From: Saccoglossus kowalevskii
Taxonomy: Eukaryota; Hemichordata; Enteropneusta; Harrimaniidae
NCBI RefSeq assembly: GCF_000003605.2
Contig: NW_003116455.1
Coordinates: 335,561 to 367,053, forward strand
DNA length: 31,493 nt
Direction of reading: 5' to 3'
The notes beneath the pieces were generated by a model, which was not told the DNA's origin, made no database searches, and worked only from the letters and a program-made list of their open reading frames with translations. Below are positions 27,201 to 29,029 of this stretch, one piece after another. A program made the position numbers and the translations under genes. The first letter of the stretch is position 1. Every line of letters begins with the position of its first letter.

Positions 27201-29029
27201 TGGGAATGTAATTATGGTGACTTCATTGTTTCATAATTGTTTCCACTTAAAATTTTAGCCAGCAAAAAGTTCAGATATATTATTGCATTGTTTCAGGACT
27301 TTTAATACCATACATTTGTTTTTTAATCTAGATTCTCAATGGACAAGGTTGTAGTAGTTGTGCTTTGTTTTTACAAAATAAATAATTAGTCAGCCGTATA
27401 AATTTACTACATCGATGTGTACCATCAAATACAGGTTCTGTTGCTAAATGATCCTGTTAGTGTTAGAAAATATACTGGGTAAACTATAATTGGAGATTAT
27501 TTTTTGTGTACTACTAAATTGATTTACGAATTTTTGTACCTTGATTAGATTTTAAATTGTATTTTGCATAATATTTTTGTGGCAGATAGTTGACTGAAAG
27601 CAGAAGCGCTGACCCCCCCCCCCCCAACTCCAAAAATAGAAAATCTTGAATTATATAGCAGCTCTGTATTGTCCTTTGTGTTTGGTACAAATTTTTAAAC
27701 CATGCCTATAACTCCCCCTGCTGTGTATGAACTCTTATCCACTCTTTTTACTGTCTTTTTTTGGGTGCTTGTTTAATTAATTTATTAATTTTTACACTCG
27801 TACAATTTGAAAATTATTGCTGCTAGGGTGGTTAATTCATTAAAATATTGGGTGATATAAATCTAGGTTTGGTTGTCTCAAAGTGACAGTAATGTACTGC
27901 AAATACATTTGTTTGATAGTTCTACCAAAATCATTACTGTCCTTGATTGATTCATGTTTTTGGCGATGTAAGATAAAAAAGTGGTGACGTTATGGTGTGA
28001 ATACTAGACTCACCTCAATATATACCAAGTTATCGGAATGTATTCACCTAGCTTTCGTGATGTGATAGCCATGCTTAAATTCATTATTACGCTATGTTGA
28101 GTTATTGTTGCTTAATAATAATTAGTAGACATACATTGTGTGTATTAAGGCATCACCAAACGCAGCTTATTGTCATGGAATTAATGCTCTTGTCTTTACA
28201 TGTACCAAGATAGTCGTATATTTCTCCGCTGTAACATAAGGAAACATGTGTATTTTGAGACGCTGTTAATTATTCAGCAATGCTATGAAACAAAACAAAA
28301 ACAGGCAGCAATCATCTCATTTTGTAATTTAAAACTACAGAACAGAACTTTCTTGGTGTATTTAAAAGTGATTGATCTTGAATGCACTCATTGATAACTT
28401 TGTTTTAACCTCACTTTACATCCTGGCTCTGCACTAATGGTATTTATTTTTCTCTTCCTTTTTTTTCCCCTTTCACCCTATGTTTTTATTGTACCTATTT
28501 GTTCATTTACACGCTCTTCTGCTTTCTCACAACGCTTCATTCGCAGTGATAAAATTAAAGTATGGAAGCCACCAAAACCATTTCACAGAGAAAAATTTAT
28601 TTAACCTTGGCAAACTAAGAAGAAAAAAAAGTCTTCCACCAAAATGATCTCCAAATAAAATTTATTTTTATATTTAAAACAATTTATTTATATTTTTGTA
28701 TATTTTATACCATTTAATAATGCATGGTTGTATGCAAGTGCTTAAATGTGAAAATCAAAATCTAAAGAATACAAGTTACAAACTGCACCACAGACAATTT
28801 ATATAAAACTGATTTTTTTTTTTTTAGTTTTAAGGTATAGATAAAAATATTTCCACCATTGCATGATCTGTTGATTAATTTTGTATTATTTTTCCCCCTT
28901 GCCTTTTATTTTTTTGTTTTTTTTATTTTATATTTTCACTATAGCGACCGTACTGTCAGTATATGGCGGGCTCGAGGAAGTCTGGATTCACCATCTTCAG
29001 ACACACCAACTGACAAAGAAGAGGCATAG
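3084..29029 (+). CDS. KIF21: KIF21-family kinesin-4 motor with C-terminal WD40 propeller (5'-partial, 30 exons)
   Basis: Plus-end-directed kinesin-4 family protein. In vertebrates KIF21A/B restrain microtubule growth and act in neurons and at the cell cortex. Joining the exons listed separately (3084-3209 through 28945-29029) gives one open frame of 1415 residues plus stop with matching phases at every junction. Order in window numbering: C-terminal half of the motor (1-~190: switch I NAQSSRSH, switch [22 protein letters not shown] at the neck), coiled coil (~210-300), acidic Ser-rich linker (~380-427), long coiled coil (~428-860), low-complexity linker (~863-1062) and seven WD40 blades (~1070-1400). 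Vertebrate KIF21A has the same order. The P-loop half of the motor (roughly 220 residues) and the start codon lie upstream of the window. I infer a single invertebrate co-orthologue of KIF21A and KIF21B from similarity to both. Boundaries come from reading splice sites and homology by eye, without transcript evidence. Confidence 0.95.
3817..4005 (+). CDS. KIF21: KIF21 exon 2: family-specific loop and switch II
   Basis: 63 codons, phase 0 on both sides; acceptor ...tttttaatag, donor gttagt. It opens with an acidic, Asn-rich loop of about 23 residues ([17 protein letters not shown]...), matching the variable insertion KIF21 proteins carry before the core strand. [20 protein letters not shown] follows, holding switch II (DLAGSE), and the exon ends in EGISINCGL, the switch II helix region that contacts tubulin. 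Confidence 0.95.
4318..4513. mobile_element. MITE-like element, family B
   Basis: About 196 bp beginning tactgtaaaata and ending tattttacagta, a perfect 12-bp inverted pair with weaker inverted similarity inside (ttaatttttgctg near the left, gtgaaaattaattccagct near the right). Internal gtgaaaataaa(a/t)tcc motifs repeat three times. No coding capacity. Degenerate relatives appear at 17346-17415 and 20887-21045. Orientation not assignable. Confidence 0.7.
4674..4789 (+). CDS. KIF21: KIF21 exon 3: microtubule-binding loop of motor
   Basis: 116 nt, entering in phase 0 and leaving two bases (AG) of a split Ser codon; acceptor ...ttattttcag, donor gtaatt. Encodes [15 protein letters not shown], then [20 protein letters not shown]. 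The [17 protein letters not shown] block is nearly invariant in kinesins and forms part of the microtubule-binding face. Confidence 0.96.
4998..5173 (-). mobile_element. MITE-like element, family A, copy 2 (inverted relative to copy 1)
   Basis: About 176 bp bounded by tactgtaaaatgtgtattag and its inverted form ctaatacagattttatggta. Read on the minus strand it aligns along its length with copy 1 at 2845-3027. TA at each end is compatible with a TA target-site duplication. It lies in the intron after exon 3. Confidence 0.82.
5518..5713 (+). CDS. KIF21: KIF21 exon 4: end of motor core and neck
   Basis: 196 nt; its first base completes the split Ser codon and it ends in phase 0 before gtaagt. 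Encodes [20 protein letters not shown] and then [20 protein letters not shown], the conserved final strand and helix of the motor followed by the neck. The exon ends in a leucine-rich heptad stretch ([17 protein letters not shown]) that starts the neck coiled coil. The Asp and Met of DRDFM, which I recall as positions altered in human KIF21A eye-movement disease (D352, M356), are conserved. Confidence 0.96.
6183..6372 (+). CDS. KIF21: KIF21 exon 5: first coiled coil
   Basis: 190 nt, phase 0 in, one base (G) left over; acceptor ...tttatccctag, donor gtaagg. Begins [20 protein letters not shown] and continues [19 protein letters not shown], a close match to the KIF21A/B post-motor coiled coil (GKRxIxEEGVExxxDxFxEN). 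Hydrophobic heptads are visible through to the end. Confidence 0.95.
6405..6650 (+). mobile_element. Possible tRNA-derived SINE
   Basis: The sequence starting ttggtagcgtagtggttgct carries an A-box-like TAGCGTAGTGG (6409-6419) and, 34 nt on, a B-box-like aGATCAAATCt (6443-6453), the spacing of an internal Pol III promoter. It does not fold as an intact tRNA with an acceptor stem, so a tRNA-related SINE head with an unrelated body is the best reading. The 3' limit is a guess. Confidence 0.45.
7103..7169 (+). CDS. KIF21: KIF21 exon 6: coiled coil continuation
   Basis: 67 nt; enters with two bases completing an Ala codon and leaves AG. Acceptor ...gttacctttcag, donor gtcagt. Encodes [20 protein letters not shown], aligned with the vertebrate segment containing I..YIKEIE. 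Short, but phase and homology both fit. Confidence 0.93.
7633..7758 (+). CDS. KIF21: KIF21 exon 7: coiled coil and Ser/Thr-rich hinge
   Basis: 126 nt, first base completes Arg, last two bases (AA) start Asn. Acceptor ...ttcccaacacag, donor gtatgt. The start ([20 protein letters not shown]) continues the coiled coil, matching the LLESEAxNExLRR segment of vertebrate KIF21. The remainder ([20 protein letters not shown]) is polar and probably an unstructured hinge. Confidence 0.92.
   Translation, partial: VKSTGAGIRECQTEEKIGNAIRNSLFNECSPCFNNNQWRLL
8091..8109. repeat. (AT)n microsatellite abutting exon 8 acceptor
   Basis: About nine AT dinucleotides ending four bases before the acceptor AG (8112-8113), replacing the usual pyrimidine tract. 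Confidence 0.9.
8114..8236 (+). CDS. KIF21: KIF21 exon 8: basic/charged helix after hinge
   Basis: 123 nt, one base in, two bases (GG) out; donor gtatgt. The acceptor is unusual: an (AT)n microsatellite at 8091-8109 runs almost to the AG, with no pyrimidine tract. Encodes [20 protein letters not shown], equivalent to the human helix IDLAKKDLEKLKRKE. Frame continuity with exons 7 and 9 supports the call despite the poor acceptor. Confidence 0.88.
8431..8579 (+). CDS. KIF21: KIF21 exon 9: acidic Ser-rich linker
   Basis: 149 nt, one base in, one base (G) out; acceptor ...gtgttcctacag, donor gtatat. Encodes a run of Glu/Asp/Gly ([20 protein letters not shown]) followed by [12 protein letters not shown]. 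The acidic tract with serines embedded in acidic context resembles the KIF21A/B linker between the first coiled coil and the stalk and offers plausible casein-kinase-2-type sites (inference). Low complexity, so residue-level homology is weak, but phase and position agree. Confidence 0.9.
8780..8895 (+). mobile_element. Possible retroelement 3'-end fragment
   Basis: Contains aaggctgtcgacggcagaaa, then cgttacgctac and a short distance on tttgaaataaactttctgtc. The combination 'gacggc..gaaacgtta ... aaataaactt' resembles 3' tails of many invertebrate non-LTR elements. No coding sequence remains. Recognised by pattern only. Confidence 0.3.
9351..9371 (+). CDS. Candidate alternative microexon (21 nt) in KIF21 stalk entry
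   Basis: A 21-nt stretch lies between a plausible acceptor (pyrimidine-rich 9311-9335, then ...tcgtacacag) and a good donor (AAAG/gtaaag). Its length is a multiple of three and its phase matches the junction of exons 9 and 10, so inclusion would insert VLERLLK between ...SEDK and ETQLQ without a stop. I infer a regulated cassette microexon. It could also be a chance splice-site pair. Confidence 0.45.
10019..10213 (+). CDS. KIF21: KIF21 exon 10: start of long stalk coiled coil
   Basis: 195 nt, two bases in, one base (G) out; acceptor ...tcttgtttacag, donor gtatgc. Encodes [20 protein letters not shown] then [20 protein letters not shown] and [16 protein letters not shown]. This is among the most conserved stalk segments of KIF21A/B (ITCEIxIKQKLIDELE, RDTQLERDxVLQNL). 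Confidence 0.96.
10466..10690 (+). repeat. Dispersed ~225-bp repeat, family C, copy 1
   Basis: Shares long blocks with 24076-24300 in the same orientation: caaattcacaaaatagtcc, tttatagt.tgcactttcc, aaaattgactc, and agggttcatttccagaaata followed by ttgaagaat. Ends read accacca...tggtggt, hinting at short inverted termini, so a MITE is possible. In the intron between exons 10 and 11. Confidence 0.82.
10809..11008 (+). CDS. KIF21: KIF21 exon 11: stalk coiled coil
   Basis: 200 nt, two bases in, phase 0 out; acceptor ...ttgtccttacag, donor gtttgt. Encodes [40 protein letters not shown] and DEMKKSK. The block AQKEHAxLLxxxSQYExxxK is diagnostic for KIF21-type stalks. Confidence 0.96.
11511..11618 (+). 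CDS. KIF21: KIF21 exon 12: basic stalk segment
   Basis: 36 codons, phase 0 both sides; acceptor ...tttttcacaacag, donor gttagt. Encodes [20 protein letters not shown] and then [16 protein letters not shown], aligned with human LMKQMKEEQEKAR...RNREIAQLKKDQRKRD. Reading past the donor meets TAA within four codons, which supports the exon end. Confidence 0.94.
11748..11816 (+). CDS. KIF21: KIF21 exon 13: stalk coiled coil
   Basis: 23 codons, phase 0 both sides, after the shortest intron in the window (129 bp). Acceptor ...tttatttccag, donor gtgtgt. Encodes [20 protein letters not shown], matching human [21 protein letters not shown]. Confidence 0.94.
11817..12580. other. Intron between exons 13 and 14
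   Basis: 764 bp with a short A12 run near 12146-12158. I see no exon, repeat family or structured element in it. Confidence 0.7.
12581..12787 (+). CDS. KIF21: KIF21 exon 14: basic linker in stalk
   Basis: 69 codons, phase 0 both sides; acceptor ...gcactccttatag, donor gtaaga. Begins [20 protein letters not shown], where MSDKxAGxV matches KIF21A, continues through a basic variable part, and ends in RKKHQRKGT...[13 protein letters not shown], matching the RKKxQRKG and KWQxxxRR blocks. Lysine and arginine content is high. Confidence 0.95.
13217..13285 (+). CDS. KIF21: KIF21 exon 15: start of regulatory coiled coil
   Basis: 23 codons, phase 0 both sides; acceptor ...ttgtgtatttcag, donor gtaagt. 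Encodes [20 protein letters not shown] and FMH. It aligns with the start of the autoinhibitory coiled coil of KIF21A; the Met at 13268-13270 falls on the position I recall as human M947, altered in congenital fibrosis of the extraocular muscles. Confidence 0.92.
13900..14088 (+). CDS. KIF21: KIF21 exon 16: regulatory (autoinhibitory) coiled coil
   Basis: 63 codons, phase 0 both sides; acceptor has a (T)12-type tract then ...tctctgcag, donor gtgatg. Encodes [17 protein letters not shown], then [20 protein letters not shown] and VEMTETK. Human KIF21A reads TANIDYINDSISDCQANI here. The Arg at 13903-13905 (CGT) aligns with human R954, and the Ala and Ile of SANID align with A1008 and I1010, as I recall the human numbering. 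In KIF21A this segment folds back on the motor; the same role here is inference. Confidence 0.95.
14428..14442 (+). CDS. Candidate alternative microexon (15 nt) after regulatory coiled coil
   Basis: Fifteen bases encoding DWDGA sit between a strong acceptor (tatccccttgtctttag) and a strong donor (gtatgt), in phase 0 like the flanking exons 16 and 17, so inclusion adds five residues between ...EMTETK and DEGESLE. The downstream intron begins with a long pyrimidine stretch (14453-14485). Splice-site quality is better than for many constitutive exons here. Vertebrate KIF21A, as I recall it, has no such residues in its main form, so this is probably a cassette. Confidence 0.55.
14443..15457. other. 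Intron after the 15-nt candidate microexon
   Basis: Begins with a pyrimidine-rich stretch (14453-14485). Includes a G6TG6 tract (14792-14804) within a G-rich 200-bp patch. No other exon seen. The next intron (15560-16303) holds a G9 tract and a short direct repeat of tactgtacaca at 16187-16207. Confidence 0.6.
15458..15559 (+). CDS. KIF21: KIF21 exon 17: conserved post-coiled-coil block
   Basis: 34 codons, phase 0 both sides; acceptor ...gaatttttcag, donor gtgagt. Encodes [20 protein letters not shown] and [14 protein letters not shown], very close to human [28 protein letters not shown]. The conservation in both paralogues marks a functional element. Confidence 0.96.
16304..16469 (+). CDS. 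KIF21: KIF21 exon 18: last stalk coiled coil
   Basis: 166 nt, phase 0 in, one base (G) out; acceptor ...cttttttaacag, donor gtacga. Encodes [20 protein letters not shown] followed by a Gln/Leu-rich helix ([16 protein letters not shown]) and an acidic end. Human has [20 protein letters not shown] at the same place. Confidence 0.93.
17092..17146 (+). CDS. KIF21: KIF21 exon 19: Ser-rich linker
   Basis: 55 nt, two bases in, two bases (AG) out; acceptor ...tattttattttatag, donor gtaagt. Encodes [17 protein letters not shown], a low-complexity linker where vertebrate KIF21A has an acidic/Ser-rich stretch. No domain. Accepted because of splice sites and phase with exons 18 and 20. Confidence 0.82.
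17147..18911. other. Intron between exons 19 and 20
   Basis: Holds a family B fragment (17346-17415), family D copy 1 (17441-17510), a long T/C-rich stretch (17935-18060), (AAT)n near 18186-18204, and a ctg/act/atc trinucleotide-rich patch at 18830-18866 ahead of the (TA)n acceptor. No further exon supported. Confidence 0.6.
17441..17510 (+). repeat. Dispersed short repeat, family D, copy 1
   Basis: gagctgtttatataactgat then tgttgtcatcaactttacat and cttcatcttaaaaac; matches 20171-20240 over about 70 bp with scattered changes. In the intron between exons 19 and 20. Confidence 0.65.
18912..18999 (+). CDS. KIF21: KIF21 exon 20: Pro/Asn-rich linker
   Basis: 88 nt, one base in, phase 0 out; donor gttagt. 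The acceptor is poor: (TA)n immediately before ttag, with no pyrimidine tract. Encodes [20 protein letters not shown] and MPPPRSREK; the final basic residues join exon 21 as REK-ARRRT, as in human NK-ARRRT. That join and the phases are the main support. Confidence 0.8.
19353..19582 (+). CDS. KIF21: KIF21 exon 21: linker with KANK-binding-like motif
   Basis: 230 nt, phase 0 in, two bases (AG) out; acceptor ...tatatttatcag, donor gtgagg. Begins [18 protein letters not shown], resembling the KIF21A peptide ARRRTTTQMELLYAD that binds the ankyrin repeats of KANK1 and recruits the kinesin to cortical sites around focal adhesions. The spacing between RRRT and LLYA is two residues longer here. The rest is disordered: acidic, Asn-rich, with [14 protein letters not shown]. 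The motif is seen; binding is inferred. Confidence 0.9.
20171..20308 (+). repeat. Dispersed short repeat, family D, copy 2, with perfect hairpin
   Basis: 20171-20240 matches 17441-17510. Just downstream, ctgatacagc (20282-20291) and gctgtatcag (20299-20308) form a perfect 10-bp inverted repeat with a 7-nt loop (ggagcta). In the intron between exons 21 and 22. Might be the terminus of a decayed element. Confidence 0.6.
20636..20743 (+). CDS. KIF21: KIF21 exon 22: Ser-rich linker with basic RxxS site
   Basis: 108 nt, one base in, two bases (TC) out; acceptor ...tttactgtttcag, donor gtaagt. Encodes [20 protein letters not shown] and [21 protein letters not shown] is a typical basophilic kinase site (PKA-like), so this disordered linker may be phosphorylated (inference). 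No domain. Confidence 0.85.
21402..21417 (+). repeat. Homopolymer G16
   Basis: Sixteen consecutive G in the intron between exons 22 and 23. Shorter relatives: G12 at 13584-13595, G9 at 15851-15859, G6TG6 at 14792-14804, and C13 at 27613-27625. All are intronic. Confidence 0.9.
22172..22291 (+). CDS. KIF21: KIF21 exon 23: conserved Pro-rich/NVFSRL motif
   Basis: 120 nt, one base in, two bases (AG) out; acceptor ...atccacttcaacag, donor gtaaga. Encodes [20 protein letters not shown] followed by [13 protein letters not shown]. Vertebrates have PPSSPPSRPRN..NVFNRL at this spot in an otherwise divergent linker, so this is a conserved short motif of unknown role. Confidence 0.92.
22432..23100 (+). 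repeat. ~104-bp intronic tandem repeat with octamer motifs
   Basis: About six units in the intron between exons 23 and 24. The anchor gatagtt(t/c)catt recurs at 22454, 22561, 22661, 22762, 22866 and 22970 (spacings 107, 100, 101, 104, 104). The last three units are nearly identical. Each unit carries two copies or near-copies of ATTTGCAT, the POU/Oct octamer, within taatttgcatattaagtgcc and taatttgcataac. Whether it binds anything is unknown. Confidence 0.93.
23202..23338 (+). CDS. KIF21: KIF21 exon 24: start of WD40 propeller, blade 1
   Basis: 137 nt, one base in, one base (G) out; acceptor ...tttgttctatttag, donor gtatta. Encodes GVINAYTG, then [20 protein letters not shown] and [10 protein letters not shown]. 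[22 protein letters not shown] is near-identical to KIF21A and opens the first WD40 blade. Confidence 0.96.
23710..23893 (+). CDS. KIF21: KIF21 exon 25: WD40 blades 1-2
   Basis: 184 nt, two bases in, two bases (AG) out; acceptor ...cttcgtctcaacag, donor gtactt. Encodes [20 protein letters not shown] (end of blade 1), [13 protein letters not shown] and [14 protein letters not shown] (blade 2). [12 protein letters not shown] and VSTSYIKxWDIRD are shared with vertebrate KIF21A/B. Confidence 0.97.
24076..24300 (+). repeat. Dispersed ~225-bp repeat, family C, copy 2
   Basis: Direct copy of 10466-10690 by eye, in the intron between exons 25 and 26. More diverged at its 3' end, where the inverted terminus is lost. 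Confidence 0.82.
24831..24992 (+). CDS. KIF21: KIF21 exon 26: WD40 blade 3
   Basis: 162 nt, one base in, two bases (AG) out; acceptor ...tactaatatatttcag, donor gtaagt. Encodes [40 protein letters not shown] and STVRFWDLR. Blade 3 of the propeller, aligned with human SSGQVTLGDAC...PSGENQINQIALNPTG. Confidence 0.96.
25301..25421 (+). CDS. KIF21: KIF21 exon 27: WD40 blade 4
   Basis: 121 nt, one base in, phase 0 out; acceptor ...tatgtgtttatag, donor gtaact. Encodes [20 protein letters not shown] then [15 protein letters not shown] second AG six bases inside the exon (tttccag) was not chosen because using it would remove the conserved Phe-Gln and break the phase. Confidence 0.95.
25731..25998 (+). 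repeat. Tandem array duplicating the acceptor and 5' part of exon 28
   Basis: About 3.4 units of ~77 bp (one is 80 bp through an extra ggt). Each unit is the first 60 nt of exon 28 (from tatttgaagtacctgatga to ctaaaacca/ctagaacca) followed by the last 17 nt of the intron (ttcactattattgacag). Acceptor-like AGs lie at 25786-25787 (acaag), 25865-25866 (gacag) and 25942-25943 (gacag, the real one). The upstream copies read into a stop if spliced straight through, because 77 is not divisible by three. Confidence 0.92.
25944..26114 (+). CDS. KIF21: KIF21 exon 28: WD40 blades 4-5
   Basis: 57 codons, phase 0 both sides; acceptor ...cactattattgacag, donor gtatgt. Encodes [40 protein letters not shown] and [17 protein letters not shown]; human has [19 protein letters not shown] and FSGSRDNGIKKWDL. 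Its first 60 nt plus the acceptor occur three more times just upstream as degenerate tandem copies (25731-25943); only this copy is followed by the conserved PPHYDG sequence. Confidence 0.96.
26341..26540 (+). CDS. KIF21: KIF21 exon 29: WD40 blades 6-7
   Basis: 200 nt, phase 0 in, two bases (AG) out; acceptor ...ttcatttcttgcag, donor gtaagt. Encodes [38 protein letters not shown] and [17 protein letters not shown], ending FTAS. The split Ser codon can be completed by either of the two downstream terminal exons. Confidence 0.96.
26541..28546. other. Intron before the alternative terminal exons
   Basis: The longest complete intron in the window (2.0 kb to exon 30a, 2.4 kb to exon 30b). AT-rich, with C13 at 27613-27625. 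I see no exon, RNA gene or recognisable transposon in it. Confidence 0.65.
28547..28604 (+). CDS. KIF21: KIF21 alternative terminal exon 30a (proximal)
   Basis: After acceptor ...cttcattcgcag, the first T completes AG-T (Ser); [18 protein letters not shown] and TAA follow. DKIKVW is a proper final WD40 strand, so splicing exon 29 here closes the propeller and gives a short basic tail (about 1406 residues in the window). A canonical AATAAA lies 50 nt past the stop (28654-28659), supporting a true terminal exon. The pattern (Dxx.VKxW then a Pro/basic tail) resembles the KIF21B C-terminus more than the KIF21A one, as I recall them. No donor is needed; it is mutually exclusive with the distal exon. 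Confidence 0.75.
28654..28659 (+). promoter_or_regulatory. Poly(A) signal of proximal terminal exon
   Basis: AATAAA 50 nt after the TAA of exon 30a, followed by T-rich sequence (28660-28710) that could serve as the downstream element. Its position just after an in-frame terminal exon is the main reason to take it seriously; AT-rich sequence can produce the hexamer by chance. Confidence 0.6.
28945..29029 (+). CDS. KIF21: KIF21 terminal exon 30b (distal)
   Basis: After acceptor ...tatattttcactatag, the first C completes AG-C (Ser); [20 protein letters not shown] and an acidic end (PTDKEEA) precede TAG at 29027-29029. It closes the seventh WD40 blade. The pattern DRTVxIWxARxxxD...SDT is shared with the human KIF21A C-terminus (DRTVRIWKARNLQD...SDT). 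The long 3' UTR with the 29-bp minisatellite belongs to this form. Confidence 0.9.

Follow-up and report, generated by a model that had tools for sequence, protein, structure and literature searches.

Two candidate last exons, each completing the final WD40 blade, in a KIF21-type kinesin gene of Saccoglossus kowalevskii

KIF21A and KIF21B are vertebrate kinesins. In KIF21B a basic region adjoining the WD40 domain aids microtubule binding (PMC5383399). The solved WD40 structure of human KIF21A (PDB 7klj) ends FTAADDRTVRIWKA. We analysed a 31,493-nucleotide stretch of Saccoglossus kowalevskii DNA (the window) that carries a KIF21-type kinesin-4 gene, the one KIF21 locus found by a single protein search. 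The gene has two candidate last exons, a proximal one starting at T28547 (P) and a distal one starting at C28945 (D). D is of the KIF21A type, a 14-residue ending here standing against that of 7klj. Judged from sequence, P and D are probably alternative last exons that are both used, and they look like a genuine isoform choice of a kind already known.

Two joined reading frames

The last shared coding exon closes with AG, two bases of a split Ser codon, at a consensus donor, AG/GTAAGT (TCTAG/GTAAGT in longer context). The sequence immediately 5' of P is TTCATTCGCAG, and that immediately 5' of D is TTCACTATAG. Once the WD40 exons before them are joined on, each frame remains open, P adding 18 residues beyond the shared Ser before a stop at 28602–28604 and D adding 27 before a stop at 29027–29029. 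The repeat is completed in either case, which bears out the proposal of the first-pass annotation that two terminal exons each finish the last WD40 blade. Farther upstream, the linker exon was joined from 22173 because 22172 completes the preceding codon.

Table 1. Features of the gene within the window
Feature	Coordinates	Strand	Evidence
Pro/Ser/Arg-rich linker exon, N-terminal to WD40 propeller	22172..22291	+	open frame, GT-AG ends
WD40 exon	23202..23338	+	joined reading frame; alignment to human KIF21A (7klj)
WD40 exon with 11-residue blade of P-like short spacing	23710..23893	+	joined frame, 7klj alignment
WD40 exon with 11-residue blade of P-like short spacing	24831..24992	+	joined frame, 7klj alignment
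WD40 exon	25301..25421	+	joined reading frame; 7klj alignment
WD40 exon	25944..26114	+	joined reading frame; 7klj alignment
Final coding exon common to both putative isoforms	26341..26540	+	joined reading frame; donor used for P and D
Candidate proximal last exon P (coding region with stop codon)	28547..28604	+	open frame, strict strand pattern, Pfam WD40 score
Putative poly(A) signal of P (AATAAA)	28654..28659	+	hexamer, U-rich downstream
Distal last exon D (coding region with stop codon)	28945..29029	+	open frame, 7klj match through last strand, Pfam WD40 score
Putative poly(A) signal of D (AATAAA)	30913..30918	+	sole A[AT]TAAA from D stop to window end

Proximal exon against chance

P is the weaker of the two exons, because its strand is one residue shorter and its acceptor is among the lowest-scoring in the gene. 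With P, the last repeat's Pfam WD40 score rose from 17.5 to 25.8 bits, under the Pfam cut-off of 27; with D it reached 31.9 bits. In a local profile test P ranked 10th of 1,145, below D and eight background tails. Both results count against P, as does its acceptor score of −0.1, compared with 10.6 for D, in a matrix built from the gene's own 25 placed acceptors (some unresolved exons lie outside this set). That score equals those of the two weakest among the 25, and at least 12 of 88 intron AGs outscore it. Pyrimidine content at P was 0.70, a joint second place for the last intron's 53 YAG sites; across the 25 acceptors it spanned 0.45–0.90. The short strand spacing of P recurs in two further blades of this propeller, and likewise in human KIF21A in the 7klj alignment.

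The strand pattern makes it unlikely that P arose by chance. A strict pattern, SD..?[VI].[VIL]W downstream of an in-phase AG, matched twice in the last intron, at P and at D. Across 200 kb of the same genome (both strands) none of 11,927 AGs was followed by it, nor was any of 1,823 AGs on the minus strand of the window. Among 4,000 simulated introns it appeared twice, once with a good acceptor; relaxing the pattern while still requiring a good acceptor gave 13 cases. Competition between terminal exons is compatible with the sequence and better than chance, given the joined frames and this background test. Searched against the genome, the P region matched only itself, and therefore no repeat was seen.

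An AATAAA had been noted 50 nt after the proximal stop; it lies 49 nt downstream, and no other A[AT]TAAA occurs from that stop to the start of D. It is weak evidence for P because the hexamer is common in the window (both strands together give 105 matches; shuffled sequence averages 73.6).

Vertebrate tails and the predicted isoforms

The distal tail had been likened to that of KIF21A, and this holds through the last WD40 strand (7klj); beyond the strand the likeness is modest (p about 0.014 against a presumed human tail sequence). The suggested kinship of the proximal tail with KIF21B found no such support, its alignment scoring no higher than shuffled sequences (p about 0.97) in a low-powered test against a presumed KIF21B tail sequence. 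The basic, proline-containing character common to these two tails is not homology. Of the two endings, then, only D could be matched to a vertebrate paralogue. These comparisons do not support the proposal that an isoform choice of the ancestral gene was shared out between the vertebrate paralogues; it has one leg at most, because a KIF21B likeness of P is unsupported and D beyond the WD40 strand is only modestly KIF21A-like.

We consider it reasonably likely that splicing from the donor at 26540 goes either to P, as a composite terminal exon, or to D, as the main last exon. The last intron would house P about 400 nt upstream of D, complete with a 3' splice site, a short coding stretch, a stop codon and a poly(A) signal of its own. 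Splicing to P would give a short mRNA with cleavage predicted near 28.68 kb; splicing to D would give a long one whose 3' UTR runs to about 1.9 kb, ending at a predicted cleavage site. Because P and D each supply the final strand of the last blade, the propeller is expected to close in both proteins. The isoforms would differ in 3' UTR and in the tail behind the propeller, which is short and basic in P (net +3) and longer and acidic in D (net −2). Since the KIF21B WD40 domain binds microtubules with adjacent basic sequence (PMC5383399), the likeliest effect would be a change in how the propeller binds the lattice or its partners.

TGCATG, one of eight motifs tried, occurs five times on the sense strand of the last intron (shuffle mean 1.13), an excess tempered by its enrichment across the window (47 versus 29.9). 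The acceptor of the WD40 exon beginning at 25944 sits inside a 77-bp tandem array.

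The KIF21 gene and its WD40 exons

On its plus strand, the window (contig bases 335561–367053 of a 572-Mb genome) carries much of a kinesin-4 gene of the KIF21 type. Three kinesin motor pieces follow the order of the PF00225 profile, within profile positions 223–327; their order and strand, shared with the WD40 exons, suggest that motor and WD40 exons belong to one transcript. The joined WD40 protein matched human KIF21A of PDB entry 7klj (7klj_A, isoform 2) with 422 bits and an E value of 1e-125 over query residues 8–334. The KIF21 subfamily traits found were this KIF21A-related C-terminal WD40 propeller, the upstream kinesin motor and a proline/serine/arginine-rich linker, which was recognized by eye in the exon preceding the WD40 domain, as in the KIF21B described in PMC5383399.

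Mapped features of the KIF21 gene, including its two candidate last exons
Feature	Position	Strand	Evidence
Kinesin motor piece	3889–4005	+	PF00225, 36.7 bits (cut-off 29.3)
Kinesin motor piece	4677–4787	+	PF00225, 52.5 bits (cut-off 29.3)
Kinesin motor piece	5522–5713	+	PF00225, 31.2 bits (cut-off 29.3)
Pro/Ser/Arg-rich linker exon	22172–22291 (joined from 22173)	+	Single open frame with WD40 exons
WD40 exon	23202–23338	+	Joined open frame
WD40 exon	23710–23893	+	Joined open frame
WD40 exon	24831–24992	+	Joined open frame
WD40 exon	25301–25421	+	Joined open frame
WD40 exon	25944–26114	+	Joined open frame
Last shared WD40 exon	26341–26540	+	Joined open frame
Proximal candidate last exon (P)	28547–28604	+	Stop at 28602–28604
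Distal last exon (D)	28945–29029	+	Stop at 29027–29029

KIF21A, KIF21B and C. elegans KLP-12, all kinesin-4 proteins of the KIF21 subfamily, likewise combine an upstream motor with a C-terminal WD40 domain, and KLP-12 has been called an ortholog of KIF21A and KIF21B (PMC9451533). The gene here differs from all three in having a second, proximal candidate last exon, which would encode a short basic tail. When the genome was searched with a 94-residue query (15 matches, best candidates scored), the KIF21 locus reached 145.4 and 48 bits and the remainder were weak, at no more than 26.1 bits; one KIF21 locus was found among the scored best candidates of this single protein search.

Some WD40 exons adjoin tandem repeats. 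A 77-bp unit, present in ~3.5 copies at 25732–26003, spans the acceptor and first part of the 25944–26114 exon, and since the array includes that acceptor, near-copies of it are lined up upstream of the exon. A 104-bp tandem repeat (~6 copies, 22478–23100) occupies the intron preceding exon 23202–23338.

Two candidate last exons

The last shared exon ends in FTAS plus AG at 26540, followed by GTAAGT, and its joins to P, which lies inside the last intron, or to D both stay open until the stop. The two acceptors are in compatible phase, and a stop follows 18 (P) or 27 (D) residues after the shared Ser. The first-pass annotation had proposed the pair as competing ends that each finish the last WD40 blade; joined frames and inspection of the sequence bore out its coordinates, residue counts and AATAAA hexamer. 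Most likely, in our view, P and D serve a single KIF21 gene as alternative last exons, an arrangement of a kind already known.

Alternative ends of this kind occur in another kinesin gene, KIF1B, where an alternative last exon whose poly(A) site lies earlier accounts for the alpha and beta tails (PMC10256740). The likeness lies in a kinesin gene whose tails differ by choice of last exon. Most of the tail changes between KIF1B alpha and beta, whereas here the change would be limited to the final strand of the propeller and what follows it (18 or 27 residues after the shared Ser). Developmental splicing of Kif21a exon 30 has been reported in mouse cortex (PMC11077083), as have KIF21A splicing events in general (PMC6092797, PMC10074678). 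A term search of PMC4207309 found nothing on isoforms, and among the matches listed, judged by titles and the starts of abstracts, no paper was devoted to KIF21 alternative last exons. In a mouse Kif21b cDNA, c.4905_4906insC causes a frameshift and an early stop in exon 35 (PMC7229210); this too is a variant near the C-terminus, but one that arises from insertion of a single base in a cDNA clone, with no second terminal exon.

Either exon improved the last repeat. With no last strand its Pfam WD40 score was 17.5 bits; P raised this to 25.8 and D to 31.9, against a cut-off of 27. From the shared Phe to the Trp, P has one residue fewer than D, a short spacing that recurs in two other blades of the propeller and in the human KIF21A segments FTVSTSYIKVW and YAASGNAVRMW; the ungapped alignment of P with FTVSTSYIKVW scored just 4.5 bits. 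The P acceptor has a pyrimidine content of 0.70, placing it within the top four of the 53 YAG sites of the last intron. A matrix derived from 25 of the gene's acceptors gave it -0.1, equal to the weakest of them (leave-one-out range, -0.2 to 11.9), and gave D 10.6; at least 12 of the 88 AGs in the last intron outscored P. Because its acceptor is weak on the gene's own matrix, P would need help in competing with D, besides being transcribed earlier.

These values bear on an alternative in which P is a relic, either a former last exon or one used too rarely to matter, its acceptor weak and its strand shortened, leaving D as the sole productive end. An acceptor that ranks among the gene's lowest, set against one near the top for D, and a repeat 6 bits below that of D would fit this account. 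P nonetheless still has a frame, a stop, a pyrimidine-rich acceptor and an AATAAA, and this intactness counts against a relic, in which one would expect part of this set to be gone; we regard the relic as unlikely, though worth keeping in mind, and continue to favor alternative last exons.

Downstream, a single A[AT]TAAA occurs between the P stop and D, at 28654, 49 nt past the stop, with U-rich sequence behind it. One is found for D within the window, 1,883 nt past its stop. AATAAA occurs often in the window (105 on both strands, against a shuffle mean of 73.6), so the presence of one behind P adds little. The predicted 3' UTR of D contains a 29-bp minisatellite of ~27 copies (29267–30050).

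Other origins for P were tried and rejected. Alignment of the P and D coding DNA was no better than that of shuffles (p ~0.35), contrary to a recent tandem copy of D. The P region matched itself alone in the genome, in a word search that skips very common words, giving no sign of a repeat or mobile element. Use of P as an internal microexon leading to D through AAA|GTATGG (GT at 28560) would give the wrong frame for D.

Likelihood of a chance exon

In another alternative P is a pseudo-exon: an AG that stands by chance ahead of a frame with a fortuitous resemblance to a WD40 strand. At every AG we looked for SD..?[VI].[VIL]W in phase, a pattern picked after P had been seen. In the last intron it was matched at two of 86 AGs, namely P and D, which were also its only matches among 1,581 AGs on the plus strand of the window. 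There were none at 1,823 AGs on the minus strand, nor at 11,927 AGs on both strands of 200 kb of DNA from the same genome (loci L003–L022; the 21 loci L002–L022 contain 70,596 N). By this strict pattern, neither the last intron nor the window's plus strand nor locus L002 (2,765 N) yielded a third last exon. Of 4,000 introns simulated at the length of the last intron with a first-order Markov model, two had the strict pattern, one of them with a good acceptor, and 65 had a looser pattern, 13 with a good acceptor. Because the pattern was post hoc, the probability of a fortuitous P was set at about 1 in 4,000 to 1 in 300.

A local WD40 profile ranked P 10th of 1,145 sequences, with D and eight of 1,142 background tails above it; this is a poor test, its stem being near the human repeat used in building it and short background tails scoring well, and it was not relied on. 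Those eight tails, the post hoc choice of pattern, the 13 of 4,000 simulated introns with the looser pattern and a good acceptor, and the frequency of AATAAA near a stop in such DNA would all fit a pseudo-exon. Against it are the absence of the strict pattern from the 11,927 background AGs and the position of P, in correct phase, within an intron that needs just such a strand. A pseudo-exon seems to us quite improbable, and the reading of P as an alternative last exon is retained. Judged by sequence, this is an ordinary, plausible alternative last exon.

Vertebrate tails, charge and TGCATG motifs

The first-pass annotation had likened D to KIF21A and P to KIF21B, and had suggested that an isoform choice was divided between the vertebrate paralogues. 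For D the likeness held through the last strand, because the end of 7klj, FTAADDRTVRIWKA, corresponds to it. Beyond that strand the partners were short, provisional KIF21A and KIF21B tail sequences: the D tail scored 25 with the provisional KIF21A tail, a score reached by 0.0138 of shuffles, and 12 with that of KIF21B (reached by 0.75). P scored 5 with the provisional KIF21A tail (reached by 1.0 of shuffles) and 9 with that of KIF21B (0.97), the latter a low-power comparison of 12 residues with a provisional sequence, and its proposed KIF21B likeness did not emerge.

That P and D are an ancestral pair, divided by KIF21B and KIF21A after the vertebrate duplication, would suit the agreement of D with KIF21A through the last strand, the resemblance of its tail to the provisional KIF21A tail (p ~0.014) and the one KIF21 locus among best candidates scored in one protein search of the genome. 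P, however, was not above shuffles against the provisional KIF21B tail (p ~0.97), in a low-power comparison of short, provisional tails, and we rate such a division very improbable. A comparable proposal concerns the d4 family (tth/dd4, DPF3a): the role of an isoform that some animals make from a single gene by an alternative last exon is suggested to have been taken over by a separate paralogue (PMC11678306). The d4 case rests on gene models from many species, whereas the KIF21 paralogue link is hypothetical here. If both ends are used, the gene would be a test case for whether an isoform choice predated the KIF21A/KIF21B split.

The tails of our favored alternative last exons differ in net charge, +3 for P and -2 for D. 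The WD40 domain of KIF21B and the positively charged linker that adjoins it on the N-terminal side bind microtubules jointly (PMC5383399). Our best guess at the effect is that choosing between P and D would shift the charge beside the propeller; if both ends are used, the animal could alter this charge, next to the KIF21 propeller that binds microtubules, through a simple choice of 3' end.

Five sense-strand TGCATG motifs occur in the last intron (26580, 26588, 26726, 28721 and 28860), whereas shuffles averaged 1.13 and 4 of 500 reached five; TGCATG, the RBFOX site, was one of eight motifs tried. Another 20 lie in the 26.5 kb upstream of the last intron, the whole window being enriched. Involvement of RBFOX could be taken as a lead only. 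In a fuller scenario, a single invertebrate KIF21 would make both an acidic, KIF21A-like end and a basic one, the choice would be regulated in neurons, perhaps by RBFOX through TGCATG near the donor and both exons, and the vertebrate duplicates would each have fixed one end. We give this very little credence; as drawn from sequence, the evolutionary reading would be an idea whose KIF21B half is unsupported. An AU-rich motif also stood out among the eight (9 against 4.2, reached by 19 of 500 shuffles). As to placement, two TGCATG motifs follow the shared donor at distances of 40 and 48 nt, one lies past the AATAAA of P, and one is ~80 nt before the D acceptor.
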